From Verrucomicrobiota bacterium (GTDB lineage: Bacteria; Verrucomicrobiota; Verrucomicrobiia; Limisphaerales; SIBE01), in contig VHCZ01000021.1 of the NCBI GenBank assembly GCA_016871535.1, positions 1 to 43,949 of the forward strand: DNA of 43,949 nucleotides, in the 5' to 3' direction. A program made the position numbers and the translations under genes. Numbering within the stretch: the first letter of the stretch is position 1; every line of letters starts with the position of its first letter. Shown here in pieces: positions 4,084 through 40,397 of this stretch. The notes beneath the pieces are model-generated. The model was not told where the DNA came from, did not search any database, and saw nothing but the letters and a program-made list of their open reading frames with translations.

Positions 4084-4248
4084 CCCTTAGAGCCTGCCTG
4101 AAAATTGTCTTCTGGGTGGAACAGGCCACCGGCCTGTTGCGGCGGGCTACCAGCCCGCCGGGCCTTTTGGCGGCAGGTTGCCGCCAAACACAGGCTGGTA
4201 GCCTGGCTGGTAGCCCGTTCCACCCATTTTTCAGACAGGCTCTTAGGG
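4084..4248. repeat. 165-bp palindromic element
   Basis: The outer arms at 4084-4104 and 4228-4248 are inverted copies (19 of 21 bases match) built on AGAGCCTG.CTGAAAA. Nested arms GGGTGGAAC/GTTCCACCC and CCGGCCTG/GCTACCAGCCCG-type palindromes lie inside. No reading frame is conserved in it. It is a MITE- or REP-like dispersed element sitting upstream of the PVC cytochrome gene. Confidence 0.75.
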
Positions 4249-20677: not shown

Positions 20678-21253
20678 GAAACGTAAAACGTAAAACGTAA
20701 AACGTGATTAGGGCATCGGCATCTCTTCAAGCATCCAAGCGGTCGGCGCTCCTGGATCGATGCGATCGGAACTCGGAATTCGGTATTCGGGGGAATTCTC
20801 CTTCAAGACACTCTCTCGCTGCTGGGGTATCATGGCGAGAAGGAGACGAATCAATTGGGTCGTCAATCTTGTTCGGTGGTTCGTCACCGTGTCTGTCAGT
20901 ACGTAGCGAGCTTTGTAATACCAATCGCGAGCTTCCCTCGCGGATCCCAGCGCGTACTCATAGAAACGAGATCTATCTCTCCCTGTCCCTCTCGAATAAC
21001 CCTCGGCGAGATTGGCCGATATCGATCCCACTGACCGAAACAATTGCCCGGACAAGTCTTGGGTCCTCTTGTCCTGTATTAGTTTCGTAGCATCGTGCCA
21101 CGCGAGATCAGAGAGAAACAAACCGAGTCGATACGCTTCCATCTTCCAGAGGGAATCAGCCGTGATCTCGGCTGGAACTGTCGCGAGCCATTCTTGGTAA
21201 TTCATAAAGTTGTCCTGATAGAATCACGTTTCACGTTTTACGTTTTACGTTTC
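20678..21253 (-). mobile_element. 576-bp cassette with heptamer-built inverted ends carrying a four-helix-bundle gene
   Basis: The left end (20678-20709) and right end (21222-21253) are 32-bp inverted copies with a single mismatch. Each is made of the 7-bp unit CGTAAAA repeated and closes with CGTGATT toward the inside. Between them lies only the four-helix-bundle gene. ATG occurs on both outer sides (20675-20677 and 21255-21257 on the minus strand), a possible 3-bp target duplication. No transposase is encoded, so movement would need a function in trans. Confidence 0.7.
20708..21205 (-). CDS. Four-helix-bundle protein (23S rRNA intervening-sequence type)
   Basis: 165 residues, ATG 21205 with AGGA eight bases upstream. 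The core WKMEAYRLGLFLSDLAWHDA, TQDLSGQLFRSVGSISANLA, EGYSRGTGRDRSRFYEYALG and SAREARDWYYKARY matches the TIGR02436 four-helix-bundle family, first known from intervening sequences in 23S rRNA genes and distantly related to the Avd proteins of diversity-generating retroelements. No enzymatic activity is established for the family; nucleic-acid binding is suggested for Avd relatives. The last 20 or so residues are low-similarity tail. The gene fills an inserted cassette between two exporter genes. Confidence 0.85.
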   Translation of the reverse strand: MNYQEWLATVPAEITADSLWKMEAYRLGLFLSDLAWHDATKLIQDKRTQDLSGQLFRSVGSISANLAEGYSRGTGRDRSRFYEYALGSAREARDWYYKARYVLTDTVTNHRTRLTTQLIRLLLAMIPQQRESVLKENSPEYRIPSSDRIDPGAPTAWMLEEMPMP

Positions 21254-30024: not shown

Positions 30025-33000
30025 TTAGTGCGCTTCCAGCCAATTCTTCCCCAGGCCTATTTCGACCGCGATCGGCACCTCCAGCGGAATCGCGGTTCCC
30101 ATGCCTTCCTCGATCAGGGCTCGGACTTGTTGTTCCTCCGGTTTGAACAAGTCGAAGATGAGTTCGTCGTGAACCTGGAGCAGCATGCGTGTCGTCAGTC
30201 CGCGCCGCGTCAATTCCCGATGGATCTGGACCATCGCGATCTTGATCATATCCGCGGCGCTGCCCTGGATCGGGGCATTGATCGCGTTGCGCTCGGCGCC
30301 GCCGCGAACGGTCGCGTTCGACGACCGGACATCCCGCAGGTACCGGCGCCGCCCGGCGACCGTTTGCACGAAACCCTGTTCGCGCGCAAACGCGATCGTG
30401 TCCGACATGTATTTCCGGATGCCGGGAAACTGATGGAAGTATTGCTCGATGATCGCGGCCGCTTCCTGGCGTGCGATGCCCAGGCGCTGCGCCAGGCCGA
30501 AGGCGGAGATGCCGTAGATGATGCCGAAGTTCACCATCTTCGCCTTGCGCCGCATTTCCGCGTTCACCTGGTCGAGCGGCACGCCATAAACTTTCGCCGC
30601 CGTCGCCGTGTGAATGTCGTGGCCGCTGCGGAAGGCTTCGATCATCGCGGTGTCCCGGCTGAGCGCGGCGATGATGCGCAACTCGATCTGCGAATAATCG
30701 GCGGAGAGCAAAAGATGATTCTCGTCGCGCGGCACGAAAGCCTTCCGGATTTCCTGTCCCAGTTCGGTGCGGATCGGAATGTTTTGGAGATTCGGGTTTT
30801 GCGATTGCAGCCGGCCAGTCGCGGTCGCGGCCTGTTGGTAAGTCGTGTGGACGCGGCCCGTTTTCGGAAAGATCGCCGTGGGCAACGTATCCGCGTAGGT
30901 TGATTTCAATTTCGTCATCGCCCGGTATTCGAGGATGCGCGGGACGATTTCGTGTTCGCCCGCCAGCGCCAGCAGCGTCTGTTCGTCGGTGGCGTACTGG
31001 CCGGTCCGCGTCTTTTTGGGTTTCGCGGCGATCTTGAGACCGTCGAAGAGAATTTCCCCAAGCTGCTTGGGAGAATTCAAATTGAATTCGGTTCGCGCCA
31101 GGCGGTAGATCGCTTTCTCGCCCGCGTTGATCTCCTTGGACAACTGGTCGGCGAATTCGCCCAGGACCGCGGCATCCAGGCGGACGCCTTCGCATTCCAT
31201 GGCCACCAGCACGGGCAAGAGCGGCGACTCGATTTCGTAAAACACGCGTTCCTGGCCCTTCTCTCTCAGCAACGGGGCCAGGACCGCGCGCAATTGCCAG
31301 GCGATGTCTGCGCCTTCGGTGGCGTAATCGGTCAATTGATCGAGCGGGACATGGCTCAAGCTGAGTTGCTCGGCTTCTCTCCCCCTGAACGGCCCCCTCT
31401 CCCGTCCTACGGACACCCTCTCCCCCTCCGAGGGGGAGAGGGGGCCGTTCAGGGGTTCAATGGGCGAAGTCGGTCGGAGAATTCCCTCTCCGATCAGTTT
31501 GGTGACGGGCACCGGACTGTAGCCCAGATAAACCTCGGCCAGATAATCCAGCGCGTGCCGCATGTCCGGCTCAATCAAGCTGTGCGCGAGCATCGTGTCG
31601 AACAGCTTCCCGCGCGCGGTCACGCCGCGCCATTGGAGAAGACTCAACTCGAACTTCAGATTGTGGCCGACTTTCTCGATCCGGTCGCTCTCGAACAGCG
31701 CGCGGAATTCTTCGAGGATTGCGCGCGCTTCAATTTCGTCCTGCGGCACGAGGACGAAATAACCGCTGCGCGGCGCGAAAGAAAAAGCGATCCCGATCCA
31801 CTGCGCCTCTTTCGGGTCGAAGCTGGTCGTTTCGGCGCTGAAGCAAAAGGACGGCTGATTGCCGAGCGTTTGAATGAGTTTCGCGCGCTCTTCTCGAGTG
31901 CGGATCAACTGATATTCATGCGGAACGTCGGCGATGGTTTTGAGGTTCGAGGCGCTGGGCGCTGGGCGTTGGGCTTCAGCCTCGTGGACAGGGCCGCTCC
32001 CTTCCCCCTCACCCTGGCCCTCTCCTTCAGGGAGAGGATTTTCCGAAACGCTTCGCACATTGGATCCTTGAACAGACTTGTTAACCACGGATTTCGCGGA
32101 TGGAGAAGCGGTTTTATCCGTGTAATCCCTGGTTGAATCAGGTTCGTGGGGAGGGGAGGATTGATCCTGCGTTGGAGCAAATCGAGTTGCCCTGGCTTTA
32201 CCAGAGCGTGGCGACAGACTCTCCCTCCCTCTCTCTCCACGGGAGAGGGCCGAGGTGAGGGTAAACAGGTCGCCAGTTTCCCCCACATCGACAAGCTTTG
32301 GCGGAATGCCTCCGGCTTTCGTCTGTGATTCACCCGCGAAACCGCGACCGGCTTTGAATTCGTCCCCAAGCAACCGGCGTCCGATGGAATTGAACTCGAA
32401 CTCGACGAAAAGACTCTTGAGCCTGGCTGCGTCCCATTCCCGCCGTTGGAGCGCGTCGAGGTCGATCGCGAGCGGGACGGCGCAATCGATTGTGGCCAGG
32501 CGTTTCGAGAGGAGTGCCTGGTCGCGATTCGCCTCGAGCGATTCCTTCAGCTTGCCTTTCAACTCCGCGGTGTGCGCGAGCAGATTTTCCACGCTGCCGT
32601 ATTCCGAGATCAATTTGCCGGCGGTTTTTTCGCCGATGCCGGGCACGCCCGGAATGTTGTCCGTCGCGTCGCCCCACAGCCCGAGAATGTCGATGACCTG
32701 GCGGGTTTCCTTGATGCCCCATTTGCCGAGAATCTCGGCCACGCCCAGAATTTCGATGCCGTCGCCCTGGCGCGAGGGTTTGTAGAGGAAAGTTTTGGGG
32801 GTCACCAATTGCCCGAAATCTTTGTCCGGCGTGACCATGTAGGATTCGAAGTCCTCCTGTTCCGCGCGGCGCACGAGCGTGCCGATGACGTCGTCCGCTT
32901 CGTAGCCGTCGAGGGCGATCACGGGGATGTTGAACGCTTCGATCATGCGGCGCACGTGGGGAAGCGCCTGGCTCAGGTCTTCCGGCATGGCTTCGCGCTG

Positions 33001-33231
33001 GATCTTGTAGTCCGGAAAATCGCGATGCCGCTGCGTCGGCGCGTCCGTGTCGAACGCGACCGCGATATGCGTGGGCGATTGCTCGGTGAGGATTTCGAGG
33101 AGCGTTTGCGTGAAGCCGAAGAGCGCGGAGCTATTGACGCCTTTGGACGTGAAGATGGGCCGGCGGATGAGCGCGAAGTGGGCGCGGTACGCGAGCGCCA
33201 TCCCATCCAGCAGGAAGAGTTTCTTCGGCAT
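30025..33231 (-). CDS. polA: DNA polymerase I
   Basis: 1068 residues, well above the usual 880-930. Order: 5'-3' exonuclease/FEN domain (about 1-290), a swollen linker (about 295-435), a 3'-5' exonuclease-like domain and the polymerase domain. Polymerase motifs are intact: A SADYSQIELRIIAALS, B RRKAKMVNFGIIYG, C LLQVHDELIFDL. The exonuclease-like domain looks inactive: the usual FDTETDS is FSAETTS (Ser465 for Asp), NLKYD is NLKFE, and AEDAD is TEGAD. The excess length is repeat DNA translated in frame: four tracts in the linker (32262-31952) and one inside the exonuclease-like domain (31455-31382). It functions in repair and Okazaki-fragment processing. Confidence 0.96.
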   Translation of the reverse strand: MPKKLFLLDGMALAYRAHFALIRRPIFTSKGVNSSALFGFTQTLLEILTEQSPTHIAVAFDTDAPTQRHRDFPDYKIQREAMPEDLSQALPHVRRMIEAFNIPVIALDGYEADDVIGTLVRRAEQEDFESYMVTPDKDFGQLVTPKTFLYKPSRQGDGIEILGVAEILGKWGIKETRQVIDILGLWGDATDNIPGVPGIGEKTAGKLISEYGSVENLLAHTAELKGKLKESLEANRDQALLSKRLATIDCAVPLAIDLDALQRREWDAARLKSLFVEFEFNSIGRRLLGDEFKAGRGFAGESQTKAGGIPPKLVDVGETGDLFTLTSALSRGERGRESLSPRSGKARATRFAPTQDQSSPPHEPDSTRDYTDKTASPSAKSVVNKSVQGSNVRSVSENPLPEGEGQGEGEGSGPVHEAEAQRPAPSASNLKTIADVPHEYQLIRTREERAKLIQTLGNQPSFCFSAETTSFDPKEAQWIGIAFSFAPRSGYFVLVPQDEIEARAILEEFRALFESDRIEKVGHNLKFELSLLQWRGVTARGKLFDTMLAHSLIEPDMRHALDYLAEVYLGYSPVPVTKLIGEGILRPTSPIEPLNGPLSPSEGERVSVGRERGPFRGREAEQLSLSHVPLDQLTDYATEGADIAWQLRAVLAPLLREKGQERVFYEIESPLLPVLVAMECEGVRLDAAVLGEFADQLSKEINAGEKAIYRLARTEFNLNSPKQLGEILFDGLKIAAKPKKTRTGQYATDEQTLLALAGEHEIVPRILEYRAMTKLKSTYADTLPTAIFPKTGRVHTTYQQAATATGRLQSQNPNLQNIPIRTELGQEIRKAFVPRDENHLLLSADYSQIELRIIAALSRDTAMIEAFRSGHDIHTATAAKVYGVPLDQVNAEMRRKAKMVNFGIIYGISAFGLAQRLGIARQEAAAIIEQYFHQFPGIRKYMSDTIAFAREQGFVQTVAGRRRYLRDVRSSNATVRGGAERNAINAPIQGSAADMIKIAMVQIHRELTRRGLTTRMLLQVHDELIFDLFKPEEQQVRALIEEGMGTAIPLEVPIAVEIGLGKNWLEAH
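31382..31455. repeat. Palindromic repeat family D inside polA
   Basis: Perfect 21-bp inverted arms at 31382-31402 and 31435-31455 (CCCCTGAACGGCCCCCTCTC...). The inside carries CCGTCCTACGGA and a second hairpin CTCTCCCCCT/AGGGGGAGAG. It encodes about residues 593-617 of polA in frame, between LIGEGILRPTSP and QLSLSHVPLDQL. Confidence 0.9.
31952..31974. repeat. Heptamer array GCGCTGG in polA linker
   Basis: Three tandem 7-bp units (GCGCTGG, GCGCTGG, GCGTTGG) lie in the polA linker, encoding residues near AEAQRPAPSAS. This is the third different 7-bp array in the window. Confidence 0.7.
32004..32046. repeat. CTCTCC/GGAGAG repeat in polA linker
   Basis: CCCCCTCACCCTGGCCCTCT followed by CCTTCAGGGAGAGG. 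It encodes NPLPEGEGQGEGEG on the minus strand. It resembles 4451-4490. Confidence 0.75.
32081..32152. repeat. Inverted CACGGAT-type repeat in polA linker
   Basis: AACCACGGATTTCGCGGATG to CCCTGGTTGAATCAGGTTCG is the reverse complement of the family at 29053-29135, slightly shortened. It encodes HEPDSTRDYTDKTASPSAKS in polA without breaking the frame. Confidence 0.85.
32219..32262. repeat. CTCTCCC/GGGAGAGGG repeat in polA linker
   Basis: CTCTCCCTCCCTCTCTCTCC followed by ACGGGAGAGGGCCGAGGTGA. It encodes LTSALSRGERGRES in polA. Confidence 0.75.
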
Positions 33232-33311
33232 GCGCGCAGGTTAACCCGAATCCGCGGCGCGATTCCAATCTCGATTTCGGGTTCCTGATGCTTGCAGGAG
33301 CAGGACAATCT

Positions 33312-33581
33312 TACTGATCAGACCGTGGGATAGAATACACTTTGCCAGGAGGGATTTTGGCCAGCCGCGAGGAGCGCGTGAGGCGGTGTATCCCTGCGAT
33401 CCACAACGAGCGAGCGACGAAGCGGCTGGCCAAAAGACCCCTGGCCCTGCGGGTTGCGCCGCATTTGGGCTCTGGCTTCGTTGCTCCTCAGTCGAAGATC
33501 CACCAGGGATATTCTCCTTCGTCGCGCCTGAGCCCAAATGCAACGCAACAAAGTGTATTCTATCCCACGGTCTGATCAGTA
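33312..33581. mobile_element. 270-bp MITE-like element with perfect 33-bp inverted ends
   Basis: 33312-33344 and 33549-33581 are exact inverted copies (TACTGATCAGACCGTGGGAT...). Two nested palindromes lie inside: TTTTGGCCAGCCGC (33355-33368) with 33422-33435, and GCATTTGGGCTC (33461-33472) with 33530-33541. The outermost TA on both sides fits the TA target duplication of IS630/Tc1-mariner-type elements. No transposase frame is present; the open frames inside read like non-coding text. It occupies most of the gap upstream of the polA start. Confidence 0.85.
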
Positions 33582-33595
33582 GGTGAGCCGAACCG

Positions 33596-34354
33596 CTAAT
33601 TGCCAAGCACAGCCGCGTTCCGGAGAAATGCCTTGGGCGTGACGCCGTAAGCGCGCTTGAAATGAGTCGTCATGTGGCTCTGGTCGCAAAAACCCAGGCG
33701 CAACGCGACATCCGCGATGGATTCTGAGGATTGGAGGAGAAGTTGCTTGGCGCGTTCGGTGCGACACTGAAGCAGGTATTGATGCGGGCTGGCGCCGGTG
33801 GACCGTTTGAACAAGCGTGAGAAATGGAACGGACTCATCCCCACTGCCGCGGCAATCGCCTTCAGCGAGATGTCCTCGGAGAGATGGTCGTGGATGAAAT
33901 CAATGGCGCGGCGGAGTTGGTATTTGGCCAGGCCGCGGGATTCTTCCCTGCAACGGAGGGTTTGACCGGAATACTTCCGGGCGACATGAACCGCGAGCCT
34001 CGTGGCCAGCGTCTCCGCGTACAAAGGGCCGCTGGCGCCGCCGGTCTCGACTTCGGCCCTTAGCGCCAGCGCCAGGCCATGGATGAGCGGATCATTCAGG
34101 CCGATTTGCGGAGTCAGTTCGAGCCGGTTTTGGGAGCCGATTCCATGCGCGGCGCACGCCAGGAATTTGGGTTCGAGCGAGATGAGCAAAAAGTCGCTGC
34201 GCCCCTCGCATCGCGCTGAGAACGGGAGATTTGAAGGCAGGAAATTGACTTCACCGGCCCGCATGGTGTGGGTGGGGGCGTGGCCGTTGAGTTTCATCTC
34301 CAGTTGCACGGGGTCCCCCAGATGCACGCCGCCGCCGTGGTTCAAAAAGAACAC
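33596..34354 (-). CDS. AraC-family transcriptional regulator
   Basis: At least 252 residues from GTG 34354. The C-terminal 100 residues are a double helix-turn-helix AraC domain: LRRAIDFIHDHLSEDISLKA, AVGMSPFHFSRLFKRSTGAS, IADVALRLGFCDQSHMTTHF and YGVTPKAFLR. The N-terminal part is a cupin-like sensor. Recognisable protein sequence continues upstream of the GTG in the same frame (GPWKGFFLELHSIPS, to about 34470), but no ATG, GTG or TTG exists there before the stop at about 34478. The true start may be unusual or lost. The ligand and targets are unknown; it precedes the MITE and polA on the same strand. Confidence 0.85.
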   Translation of the reverse strand: MFFLNHGGGVHLGDPVQLEMKLNGHAPTHTMRAGEVNFLPSNLPFSARCEGRSDFLLISLEPKFLACAAHGIGSQNRLELTPQIGLNDPLIHGLALALRAEVETGGASGPLYAETLATRLAVHVARKYSGQTLRCREESRGLAKYQLRRAIDFIHDHLSEDISLKAIAAAVGMSPFHFSRLFKRSTGASPHQYLLQCRTERAKQLLLQSSESIADVALRLGFCDQSHMTTHFKRAYGVTPKAFLRNAAVLGN

Positions 34355-34600
34355 ATCTTGAACCTCGGTGCTCGGAATGGAGTGCAGTTCGAGGAAGAAT
34401 CCCTTCCAAGGGCCGTTCGCGCTCGAGAGCGCAGGGGCTTGGGCGACGGGGTGACGGGACGCGCGGCCTTTTGGTTACAGTATTCCCTCAAGGCGTGACT
34501 GGTTGCAGCACATTCGCGTTTACCGCAGCGGGTTTGATTCGCTATCTTCGGCCTCGTACGGGTTTCACCGAATCGGTTGGATCGCGGATGAGCAGCGGCT

Positions 34601-36439
34601 ATGGACGACATTTTGAAGTGTTACCAAATCATCGGTGTTCAGTCGGGAACTTCTCCCAAGGCGCTCAAGAAGGCTTATCGCGATCTGGTGAAACGCTGGC
34701 ATCCGGATCGTTTTCCGGACGATTCCAACGCGCGAAAGGAAGCGGAGGAAAAGCTCAAAGCCATCAATCTGGCCTTCGAACGCATCCAGGATCACCGCGA
34801 AACTCTCATTGCGCTCGCCGCCCGAAAGTCCGGGGCAGCCGACCGCGCGCCAGGCCCGCGCGCGGCCTCCACACCACCGCGCCCCCCGCCGAGGCCCAGA
34901 CCGCAGGCGGAACCCAAGCCGCCTCCGGCATCGACAAACAAACCGCCGAGAACGCAAGCGGCATCGAGCCCCTCGGCCAAACCAAAATCAGCCTCACGGA
35001 AGGATTCCCACGCGAACTGGTTTGTGGGCCGGTTTCGTCCGGTCTCGATTGCGGCCGGCTGCGCCATTCTTCTCGCTGCCACGGCGGTGATTTTTTTGTC
35101 CGGAGGACGGAACGAAGATTCCTTTGACGCGGTCAGCGATGCCGAGCCGATGGCGCCCTTGTCGCAAATCGAGTTTCGCCGCAGCGCCGCGGCTCAAGCT
35201 CCGGATCGAACAGCGTTGTCTGGAGTGGGTGAAGTTCCGGATTCTTCGCGATTGTTGTTGCGCGAGGAGAGGGCCGACGGAAGCCCGACGCCGCCTGTTG
35301 CCGCGTTGGACTCTCCAAACTCGCAAACGGACCGCCGCAGTTCGTCTGCGCACACCAATCCGTTGCCGATGCGGATTGATGCTGTGGGACCAACGGCTGA
35401 TCGCTCGCGCCCTGAATCTCAGCCGTTCGCTGCCGACCGCAGTGCGGCGGCCGAATCGCTGCCTGCGGACGCCACCGTTTCGCCACTCCTCAGCGGCTCA
35501 CTGAAAGCGAAACTCATCGCGAAGGCCGAGGCCCCACGCCCGCTTCCCCCGAAGTTCGAGGAAACTCCCGAAGGCCGTTTCCGCTCCGCATTACGCTTGG
35601 CGCAGAGCGAAGGCGGAGCGCGGGATTACGCCGAGGCCGCGCGGTTGTATCGGCTCGCTGCGGAAGCGGGTCACGCGGAGGCGCAGAAGAATCTGGGTTT
35701 CCTTTACGTCGAGGGCAAGGGCGTGCCGCAGGATTCCGTCGAAGCCGAGAAATGGTTCAACAAAGCCGCGGCCCAAGGAATCGCCGGCGCCCAATTCGCC
35801 AGTGCGCTTCTGGCCCATGCGCAGGCGAATTCTTCGAAAGCCGCCGCGCCTCGCGAAGCGCTCCTGCGGCCTGCTGCCCTCTCCACGAACGGCCCCCTCT
35901 CCCTGTCCCTCTTCCCCTCGGAGGGGGAGAGGGCGTCCGGAGGACGGGAGAGGGGGCCCTTCAAAGAGACAATGCGCGAAGACCTTCGGAGGGCTATCCC
36001 CCAGGATGGGCCGCGTTCGCCGCTCCTGAAAGGTTTGGGCCGCTCAAATTCCCCGCAGCCGAGTCCGAAGGATTCTCCGCCGTTCCGGAGTTCCGAACCT
36101 GCAGACCCAGCCGCGCAATACGAACTGGGCCTCCGATGCGAAAAGGGCGACGGACTGAAGCCAGACTTTGCCGCCGCGGCGAAGTGGTATCGCCTGGCCG
36201 CTGATGCCGGACACTCCGCCGCGCAAAAGAAACTGGGCGACCTCTATGCATCCGGCCAAGGCGTCGCCCAGGACTTCAACGAAGCCCGGAAGTGGTATGA
36301 CAAAGCGGCCGCGAGCGGACTGGCTGGAGCCGGTCTGCGGAGAGTCTCGTCCGGCGCGGCCCAAACCGACGGACCCATCGAATCTCCGGACTCGGTCAGA
36401 TCGGATCCGCGAGAGAACCCGGACGCGAAGAAGAACTGA
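34601..36439 (+). CDS. J-domain, single-span, Sel1-repeat protein
   Basis: 612 residues. Residues 1-66 form a DnaJ domain with the HPD motif (KRWHPDRFPDD). A Pro-rich segment leads to one membrane span (VSIAAGCAILLAATAVIFLS, about 147-167). The exterior or periplasmic part has a low-complexity stretch and two Sel1 blocks: AARLYRLAAEAGHAEAQKNL with YVEGKGVPQD (about 345-385), and AAKWYRLAADAGHSAAQKKL with YASGQGVAQD (about 525-565). The J-domain should stimulate a DnaK-type chaperone on the cytoplasmic face. A palindromic repeat (35887-35962) is translated as residues about 429-455 between the two Sel1 blocks. The following gene is seven bases downstream. Confidence 0.8.
   Translation: MDDILKCYQIIGVQSGTSPKALKKAYRDLVKRWHPDRFPDDSNARKEAEEKLKAINLAFERIQDHRETLIALAARKSGAADRAPGPRAASTPPRPPPRPRPQAEPKPPPASTNKPPRTQAASSPSAKPKSASRKDSHANWFVGRFRPVSIAAGCAILLAATAVIFLSGGRNEDSFDAVSDAEPMAPLSQIEFRRSAAAQAPDRTALSGVGEVPDSSRLLLREERADGSPTPPVAALDSPNSQTDRRSSSAHTNPLPMRIDAVGPTADRSRPESQPFAADRSAAAESLPADATVSPLLSGSLKAKLIAKAEAPRPLPPKFEETPEGRFRSALRLAQSEGGARDYAEAARLYRLAAEAGHAEAQKNLGFLYVEGKGVPQDSVEAEKWFNKAAAQGIAGAQFASALLAHAQANSSKAAAPREALLRPAALSTNGPLSLSLFPSEGERASGGRERGPFKETMREDLRRAIPQDGPRSPLLKGLGRSNSPQPSPKDSPPFRSSEPADPAAQYELGLRCEKGDGLKPDFAAAAKWYRLAADAGHSAAQKKLGDLYASGQGVAQDFNEARKWYDKAAASGLAGAGLRRVSSGAAQTDGPIESPDSVRSDPRENPDAKKN
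35887..35962. repeat. Palindromic repeat family D inside the J-domain gene
   Basis: GAACGGCCCCCTCTCCC (35887-35903) is inverted at 35946-35962 with one mismatch. It is the same family as 31382-31455 in polA but lies in a plus-strand gene. It encodes NGPLSLSLFPSEGERASGGR and the following residues in frame. Confidence 0.88.
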
Positions 36440-40254: not shown

Positions 40255-40348
40255 GGCCGCAACCTAGTTCGTGTCCCGCGCCCGCTCAACGGGAAAGTTG
40301 GCTCTGACGTAATGGGCCCGTCTTGCCCGGCGGTAAAGCGCGAACCTC

Positions 40349-40397
40349 GTAGCGCAGATTTGTAATCTGCCGTATCGCAGAATTGAATTCTGCGGCG
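40349..40397. repeat. Palindromic repeat family F, partial copy
   Basis: GTAGCGCAGATTTGTAATCT then GCCGTATCGCAGAATTGAAT and TCTGCGGCGC. It matches the left arm of 7297-7423. The rest of 40255-40488 shows no gene. Confidence 0.75.

Follow-up and report, generated by a model that had tools for sequence, protein, structure and literature searches.

A 270-bp MITE upstream of polA in a Verrucomicrobiota genome and the double-hairpin core that it shares with elements bearing other ends

A MITE is commonly regarded as having arisen from a single transposon by deletion, or as a mimic of its ends. RUP of Streptococcus pneumoniae with IS630-Spn1 is the nearest functional counterpart of the element described here; RUP is 107 bp long, AT-rich and present in about 100 copies (PMC3049150). 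The two share small size, the lack of genes, IS630-like terminal repeats and strong secondary structure. They differ in length and composition, the present element being 270 bp long with 58% G+C, and PMC3049150 describes no core in common with elements of another transposase family. The Nezha MITE of cyanobacteria, as cited in the same paper, was proposed to be moved by ISNpu3-like elements; it is likened to our element by description only, as a MITE that a host IS with similar ends presumably mobilises in trans.

Correia/NEMIS, BOX and GTAG/CGTC REPs are also high-copy, hairpin-forming, modular intergenic repeats, and GTAG REPs were reported to be enriched in the verrucomicrobium O. terrae (PMC3733652). 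REPs are 20-40 bp long and associated with tyrosine (HUH) transposases (PMC3733652), whereas the terminal inverted repeats (TIRs) of the present element are about 33 bp long and the matched transposases are DDE enzymes. A REP/REPIN identity (RAYT-associated, with a 20-40 bp palindrome and terminal GTAG or CGTC) was thus ruled out by the 270-bp length, the 33-bp TIR and the DDE-type partners. In Drosophila, rearrangements of the TIRs and internal parts of Galileo were ascribed to gap repair, template switching and ectopic recombination between copies (PMC4168063). Galileo, however, is a eukaryotic P-superfamily transposon and its exchange takes place within one transposase family. No bacterial MITEs with a shared interior between ends for different transposases were described in the literature searched, which is weak evidence with subscription journals outside the search; a word search of a review of prokaryotic MITEs (PMC10969869) gave no mention of IS630, chimeric elements or Verrucomicrobia. 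Every component of the shared-core system described below is of a known type.

The element and its copies

The window is the whole stretch of DNA analysed, 43,949 nt in length. Its genome (G000) comprises 6.67 Mb in 460 contigs and was sampled as ~750 kb of regions plus targeted searches. The element, which contains two internal hairpins and no gene, is flanked by two minus-strand genes, with the 3' end of an AraC-family gene on one side and the polA start on the other. The features are as follows.

33312 to 33581, no strand: whole MITE, family A, 270 bp (exact TIRs; copies elsewhere)
33312 to 33344, plus strand: left 33-bp TIR, IS630-type end (matches the ends of an IS630-family IS in genome G002)
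33549 to 33581, minus strand: right 33-bp TIR, exact inverted repeat of the left arm
33312 to 33313, no strand: left copy of the duplicated TA target (TA borders in two-ended copies; paralogous empty sites in genome G172)
33580 to 33581, no strand: right copy of the duplicated TA target (TA borders in two-ended copies)
33355 to 33435, no strand: core hairpin P2, stem 33355-33368 with 33422-33435 (inverted repeat, fold, compensatory changes across families)
33369 to 33422, minus strand: P2 loop, inverted copy of a conserved ~53-nt motif (loop HMM 32.2 bits, E 4.6e-9)
33453 to 33549, no strand: core hairpin P3, stem 33453-33476 with 33526-33549 (inverted repeat, fold)
33476 to 33528, plus strand: P3 loop, conserved motif CTTCGTTGCTCCTCAGTCGAAGATCCACCAGGGATATTCTCCTTCGTCGCGCC (loop HMM 48.3 bits, E 4.2e-14)
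33348 to 33543, no strand: core common to elements with other TIRs (core HMM 152 bits, E 2.4e-46, the window copy itself being part of the model)
30025 to 33231, minus strand: polA, start 80 bp from the element (Pfam DNA_pol_A, 5_3_exonuc)
33596 to 34354, minus strand: AraC-family regulator gene, stop ~15 bp from the element (Pfam HTH_18/HTH_AraC)

The TIR arms are identical over 33/33 bp (TACTGATCAGACCGTGGGATAGAATACACTTTG) with the first mismatch at base 34, and no transposase ORF was found inside the 270 bp, a length within the 50-500 bp expected of a MITE. The perfect inverted ends, TA borders and missing transposase described by an earlier sequence-only reading are all confirmed. Its two nested palindromes are also present, but are better described as two hairpins side by side within an outer stem, with loops that are inverted copies of each other. 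The stem of P2 is paired at 14/14 positions and that of P3 at 88%. The RNA fold of the element reached -160.5 kcal/mol versus -93 (sd 5.5) in shuffles (z -12), and its DNA fold gave z -13 versus shuffles, with much greater stability than the shuffles for either strand. A cruciform is predicted at the element. The G+C content of the window is 60%.

The polA start at 33231 is genuine, and the element indeed lies 80 bp before it. The proposal that the element carries or displaces the polA promoter gained no support: the promoter/terminator scan gave no sigma-70-like or terminator-like site, and the region upstream of polA has diverged too far in the congeneric genomes for a comparison. An effect of the element on polA is possible. 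Rfam 15 over 32900-34700 gave no family at its gathering score.

A 296-bp query returned nine near-full copies in the host genome, plus internally deleted and partial ones. In all, nine full-length or internally deleted copies besides the window element were ~94-99% identical. When ten two-ended copies were aligned, nine were 269-276 bp long and one, with an internal deletion, 225 bp; their borders were identical, they diverged by a few percent and their flanks were unrelated. The 29-bp end had 38 matches in the genome and none in the reversed control which, together with the nine further copies, indicates that the element is not a chance structure. Perfect arms had been taken to imply recent mobility or conversion. 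Recent spread is supported by the identity between copies. Conversion is not, since perfect arms are insufficient for it and no homogenisation of the arms is visible: private mutations are seen in the left TIR of other copies, whereas their right TIR nearly always keeps the consensus. Homogenisation of the arms by template switching within copies is not supported on the same grounds.

TA was present on both sides in 9/9 fully matched two-ended copies of family A, none of which had a 3- or 4-bp duplication. The first base outward from TA was A at 32/45 ends (p 3e-12), indicating that T-TA-A is preferred. Neither an absence of other copies nor borders other than TA elsewhere, the two findings that had been named as speaking against a MITE, was encountered.

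A search for an IS630-like transposase with matching ends had been suggested, and one was found in G002, a congeneric sister species. This genome contains an intact 1,099-bp IS with ends TACTGATCAGTCCGTTGGATAGACTACAC / TACTGATCAGTCCTTAGCATAGACTACAC and TA on both sides. Its 344-aa protein contains DDE_3 (E 1.2e-35) and HTH_33 and is named IS630-family transposase by NCBIfam NF033545 (E 5.2e-62). The window element resembles this IS in its ends, TACTGATCAG..., and in TA at both borders, but has no transposase and an unrelated interior. Outside the ends, only one 11-bp match was found between the element and the IS locus (L067); the element is therefore not a simple internal deletion of this IS. 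The search of the host genome yielded no matching IS630 transposase, the sole DDE_3 protein found there having no such ends by scan, and current mobility in the host is therefore not claimed. An autonomous IS630 copy may be missing from the assembly, which breaks at repeats. The window element is a MITE, supported by the other copies, the TA borders and the matching IS ends.

Empty sites were seen in G172, a genome from another family of the same class, which has 16 related ends (TACTGATCAGATCGGGGGATAGA), some paired 277 bp apart. The 277-bp elements have the same end type and scored 41.7 bits with the core HMM versus at most -0.5 in 200 shuffles; the IS630-type form is thus not confined to the genus of the window. 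These elements are inside another repeat, which has 52 matches in G172. Removal of the element and one TA gave a gap-free alignment with unoccupied copies of this repeat, TGACCC[CA or TA]AAGCG, most of which have CA rather than TA. The expected single TA at empty sites was thus seen for elements of the same type at paralogous sites, not for the window copy itself. The window element is absent at the polA position of sister genomes, and no orthologous empty site was found for it, G001 and G002 diverging upstream of polA. No empty paralogue was found for another copy (L013), and searches with the end and core motif gave no copies in viral contigs.

A one-ended relic of the family is located ~680 bp upstream of polA in sister species G001 (L066 1501, contig C351), and in G002 the region upstream of polA contains a short element whose ends are of D type. 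These positions may reflect coincidence or a hot spot.

About 20 family A loci had one end only, with scattered breakpoints and unique sequence beyond, and one locus had two ends almost back to back, 44 bp in all. By hand count within this one assembly, the one-ended share was ~20/31 for family A but ~4/24 for family F (p 4e-4). One-ended copies may have arisen when large palindromes suffered deletions or when gap repair failed.

At L061 (1207-2007) a one-ended remnant forms the C-terminus and stop of a nucleotidyltransferase gene (...DSIPRSDQ-stop), and at L063 (2014-2553) those of a TPR-like protein gene (...YSIPRSD-stop). In-frame fusion of genes to one-ended remnants is credible in these two loci only and was rejected as a rule; long spurious ORFs are common at the host G+C.

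One core between different ends

The search of the host genome also returned matches to the interior only. These form families with the following TIRs.

Family B: TAGTGATGTGTCTCACAAATGG
Family C: AGAGCCTGTCTGAAAATT
Family D: AGTGGTCATGGACATAAATACG
Family E: TAGTGCTGTGACGCGGAATT
Family F, the commonest: AGAGCGTGTCCGAAAATT
Family G: AGGGTCTGTGCAAAAATAA
Family H: AGTGGTCCATTTCATAAATACG

All families follow one plan, that is TIR stem, P2, a short GGCCC/GGG stem, P3 and TIR stem, and standard copies across families are 269-276 bp long. A single ~53-nt motif forms both loops, in opposite orientations in P2 and P3, and the loop model detected such an inverted pair in 39/57 clusters within the ~750 kb. 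The first 18 nt of the motif matched 294 times in the host genome and never in the reversed control, from which we estimate roughly 300-400 elements of the superfamily, or some 1.5% of the genome. Among 15 elements from six genomes, 50/68 predicted pairs showed compensatory changes; the P2 stem was also compensated, as TIR pairs are expected to be.

The ends differ in their target duplications. Family A duplicates TA only. Family F was bounded by TNA in 20/20 copies, with 17 exact 3-bp repeats, and family G in 7/7, all of them exact 3-bp repeats, so that an exact 3-bp duplication is present in 24/27 copies of the two families. Family B was bounded by CTAG or CCAG, with exact 4-bp repeats in 7/7. 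IS5-family elements with TNA duplication are represented in the host genome by an autonomous IS on contig C148, which has ends AGAGCCTGTCCGAAAAWTCA of the C/F type. Its ends match those of families carrying the core of the window element, which for its part is bordered by TA and has ends of IS630 type. Since the A ends match IS630 in G002 and the C/F ends match IS5 on C148, each form has its counterpart in a different transposase family, and the two families are unrelated. Mixed ends were also found: L077 has a G left end and an F right end, and an element at L103 8497-8770 has a G left end and an H right end with the same TAA on both sides. They indicate that halves of elements recombine, although their number is small and misassembly of a MAG rich in repeats could have produced them.

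The motif was detected in 12/58 relatives, mostly other families of the same order. Among GTDB-representative contigs it was present in 71 stretches, which come almost entirely from Verrucomicrobiota, with a few from Myxococcales MAGs. The ends elsewhere are mostly of the GAGCCTGTCTGAAAATT type; IS5-type ends are therefore probably the older association of the core, and the IS630-type ends of the window copy probably a later or rarer one. As a MITE the window element is ordinary; what is unusual is its membership of a superfamily whose ends are exchangeable.

The Myxococcales MAG contigs with the core motif (L146, L153 and L181) may reflect horizontal transfer or mis-binning.

How the core may have changed ends

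We consider it very probable that the window element is a non-autonomous IS630-type MITE whose core has spread under several transposases by end exchange. An IS630-family DDE transposase would bind the 33-bp ends in trans. The enzyme would insert the element at TA, preferably T-TA-A, and duplicate the TA, a step that the data support. Long palindromes would be prone to breakage or deletion, giving one-ended relics. The core may then be joined to new ends by recombination at the conserved loops or by template switching at (quasi)palindromes, which is documented at quasipalindromes in E. coli (PMC7202029), and forms with both ends recognised by an available transposase would spread. The core behaves as a mobile module, spread by transposases of at least two families.

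The core could instead be an independently functional module, a structured RNA or a double host-protein binding site, for which the ends are interchangeable vehicles. The loop motif is conserved while the stems, P2 included, change in a compensatory manner, and the spread in Verrucomicrobiota is broad. However, Rfam gave no match, compensated stems can arise by quasipalindrome template switching without selection, and the conservation of the loops may reflect common descent only. We regard this explanation as doubtful, with a real if minor chance of being correct.

Artefacts of short-read metagenome assembly would account for one-ended copies and mixed ends, and many contigs do end inside these elements. 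The one-ended copies, though, lie well away from contig ends, are flanked on either side by unique sequence and have many different breakpoints; they are common in family A and rare in family F; and a one-ended A remnant is also present in G001. Such an origin is unlikely.

Ordinary divergence of one MITE lineage, with TIRs co-evolving with one transposase lineage and no end exchange, fits the constant length and architecture. It also fits the ends of F, C, G and perhaps D and H, which resemble variants of one IS5-type end and have TNA in common. Against it, the duplications differ in kind (TA, TNA, CTAG), the A and C/F ends match unrelated transposase families, some elements combine the ends of two element families, and unrelated interiors occur between A-like ends and between C-type ends. 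We find it improbable.

A chance or functional chromosomal palindrome that is not mobile (a terminator, an attenuator or a polA regulatory hairpin) would suit the very stable fold and the position between the AraC gene and polA, but is hardly credible given the near-identical copies dispersed in unrelated contexts with conserved borders, the missing promoter-like or terminator-like site and the absence at the polA position of sister genomes, and as sole explanation it is refuted by the dispersed copies and empty sites.

In this one genome, a single structured core is enclosed by ends belonging to two or more unrelated transposase families, with three target duplications and recombinant intermediates. 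This offers a testable case of non-autonomous elements outliving their transposases by changing ends, and a natural system for asking what the shared core contributes. More tentatively, and with the odds somewhat against it, the double-hairpin module may be the persistent entity in Verrucomicrobiota, a parasite of several IS families at once that has repeatedly taken on ends from transposases unrelated to one another (those of IS630, of IS5 and of a type that duplicates CTAG), its loops serving as recombination points or shared host-factor sites.

Other repeats and contig ends

Many contigs of the host assembly begin or end inside elements of the superfamily; examples are the starts of L098, L103, L110 and L113 and the ends of L108, L112, L119 and L124. 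Because contigs break within these elements, the elements account for part of the fragmentation of such Verrucomicrobiota assemblies.

A second repeat family of the host genome has A-like ends, TACTG[TA]GCAGACCGTGGGATTGACGACA, around another multi-hairpin interior (GCAGATTTTCAATCTGC, GCCGATTTCCAATCGGC) that is unrelated to the core. Its loci are L089 7978, L101 1472, L103 8846, L107 17845, L108 6345, L115 9174, L121 11694 and L126 18687. At 40348-40393 the window has a tandem pair of CGTAGCGCAGAATTGAAATCTGC, which resembles the small hairpin units of this family.

The window contains a second MITE at 4089-4243, with C-type ends AGAGCCTGCCTGAAAATT / AGAGCCTGTCTGAAAAAT and TTA on both sides (IS5 type). 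Its interior is a palindrome around a GGTGGAACGGGCTACCAGCCCG-like sequence, unrelated to the double-hairpin core. A perfect heptamer tandem repeat, GGATTGC x 7.7, is located at 2552-2605 of the window, and further heptamer arrays are found at 20679 and 21224.
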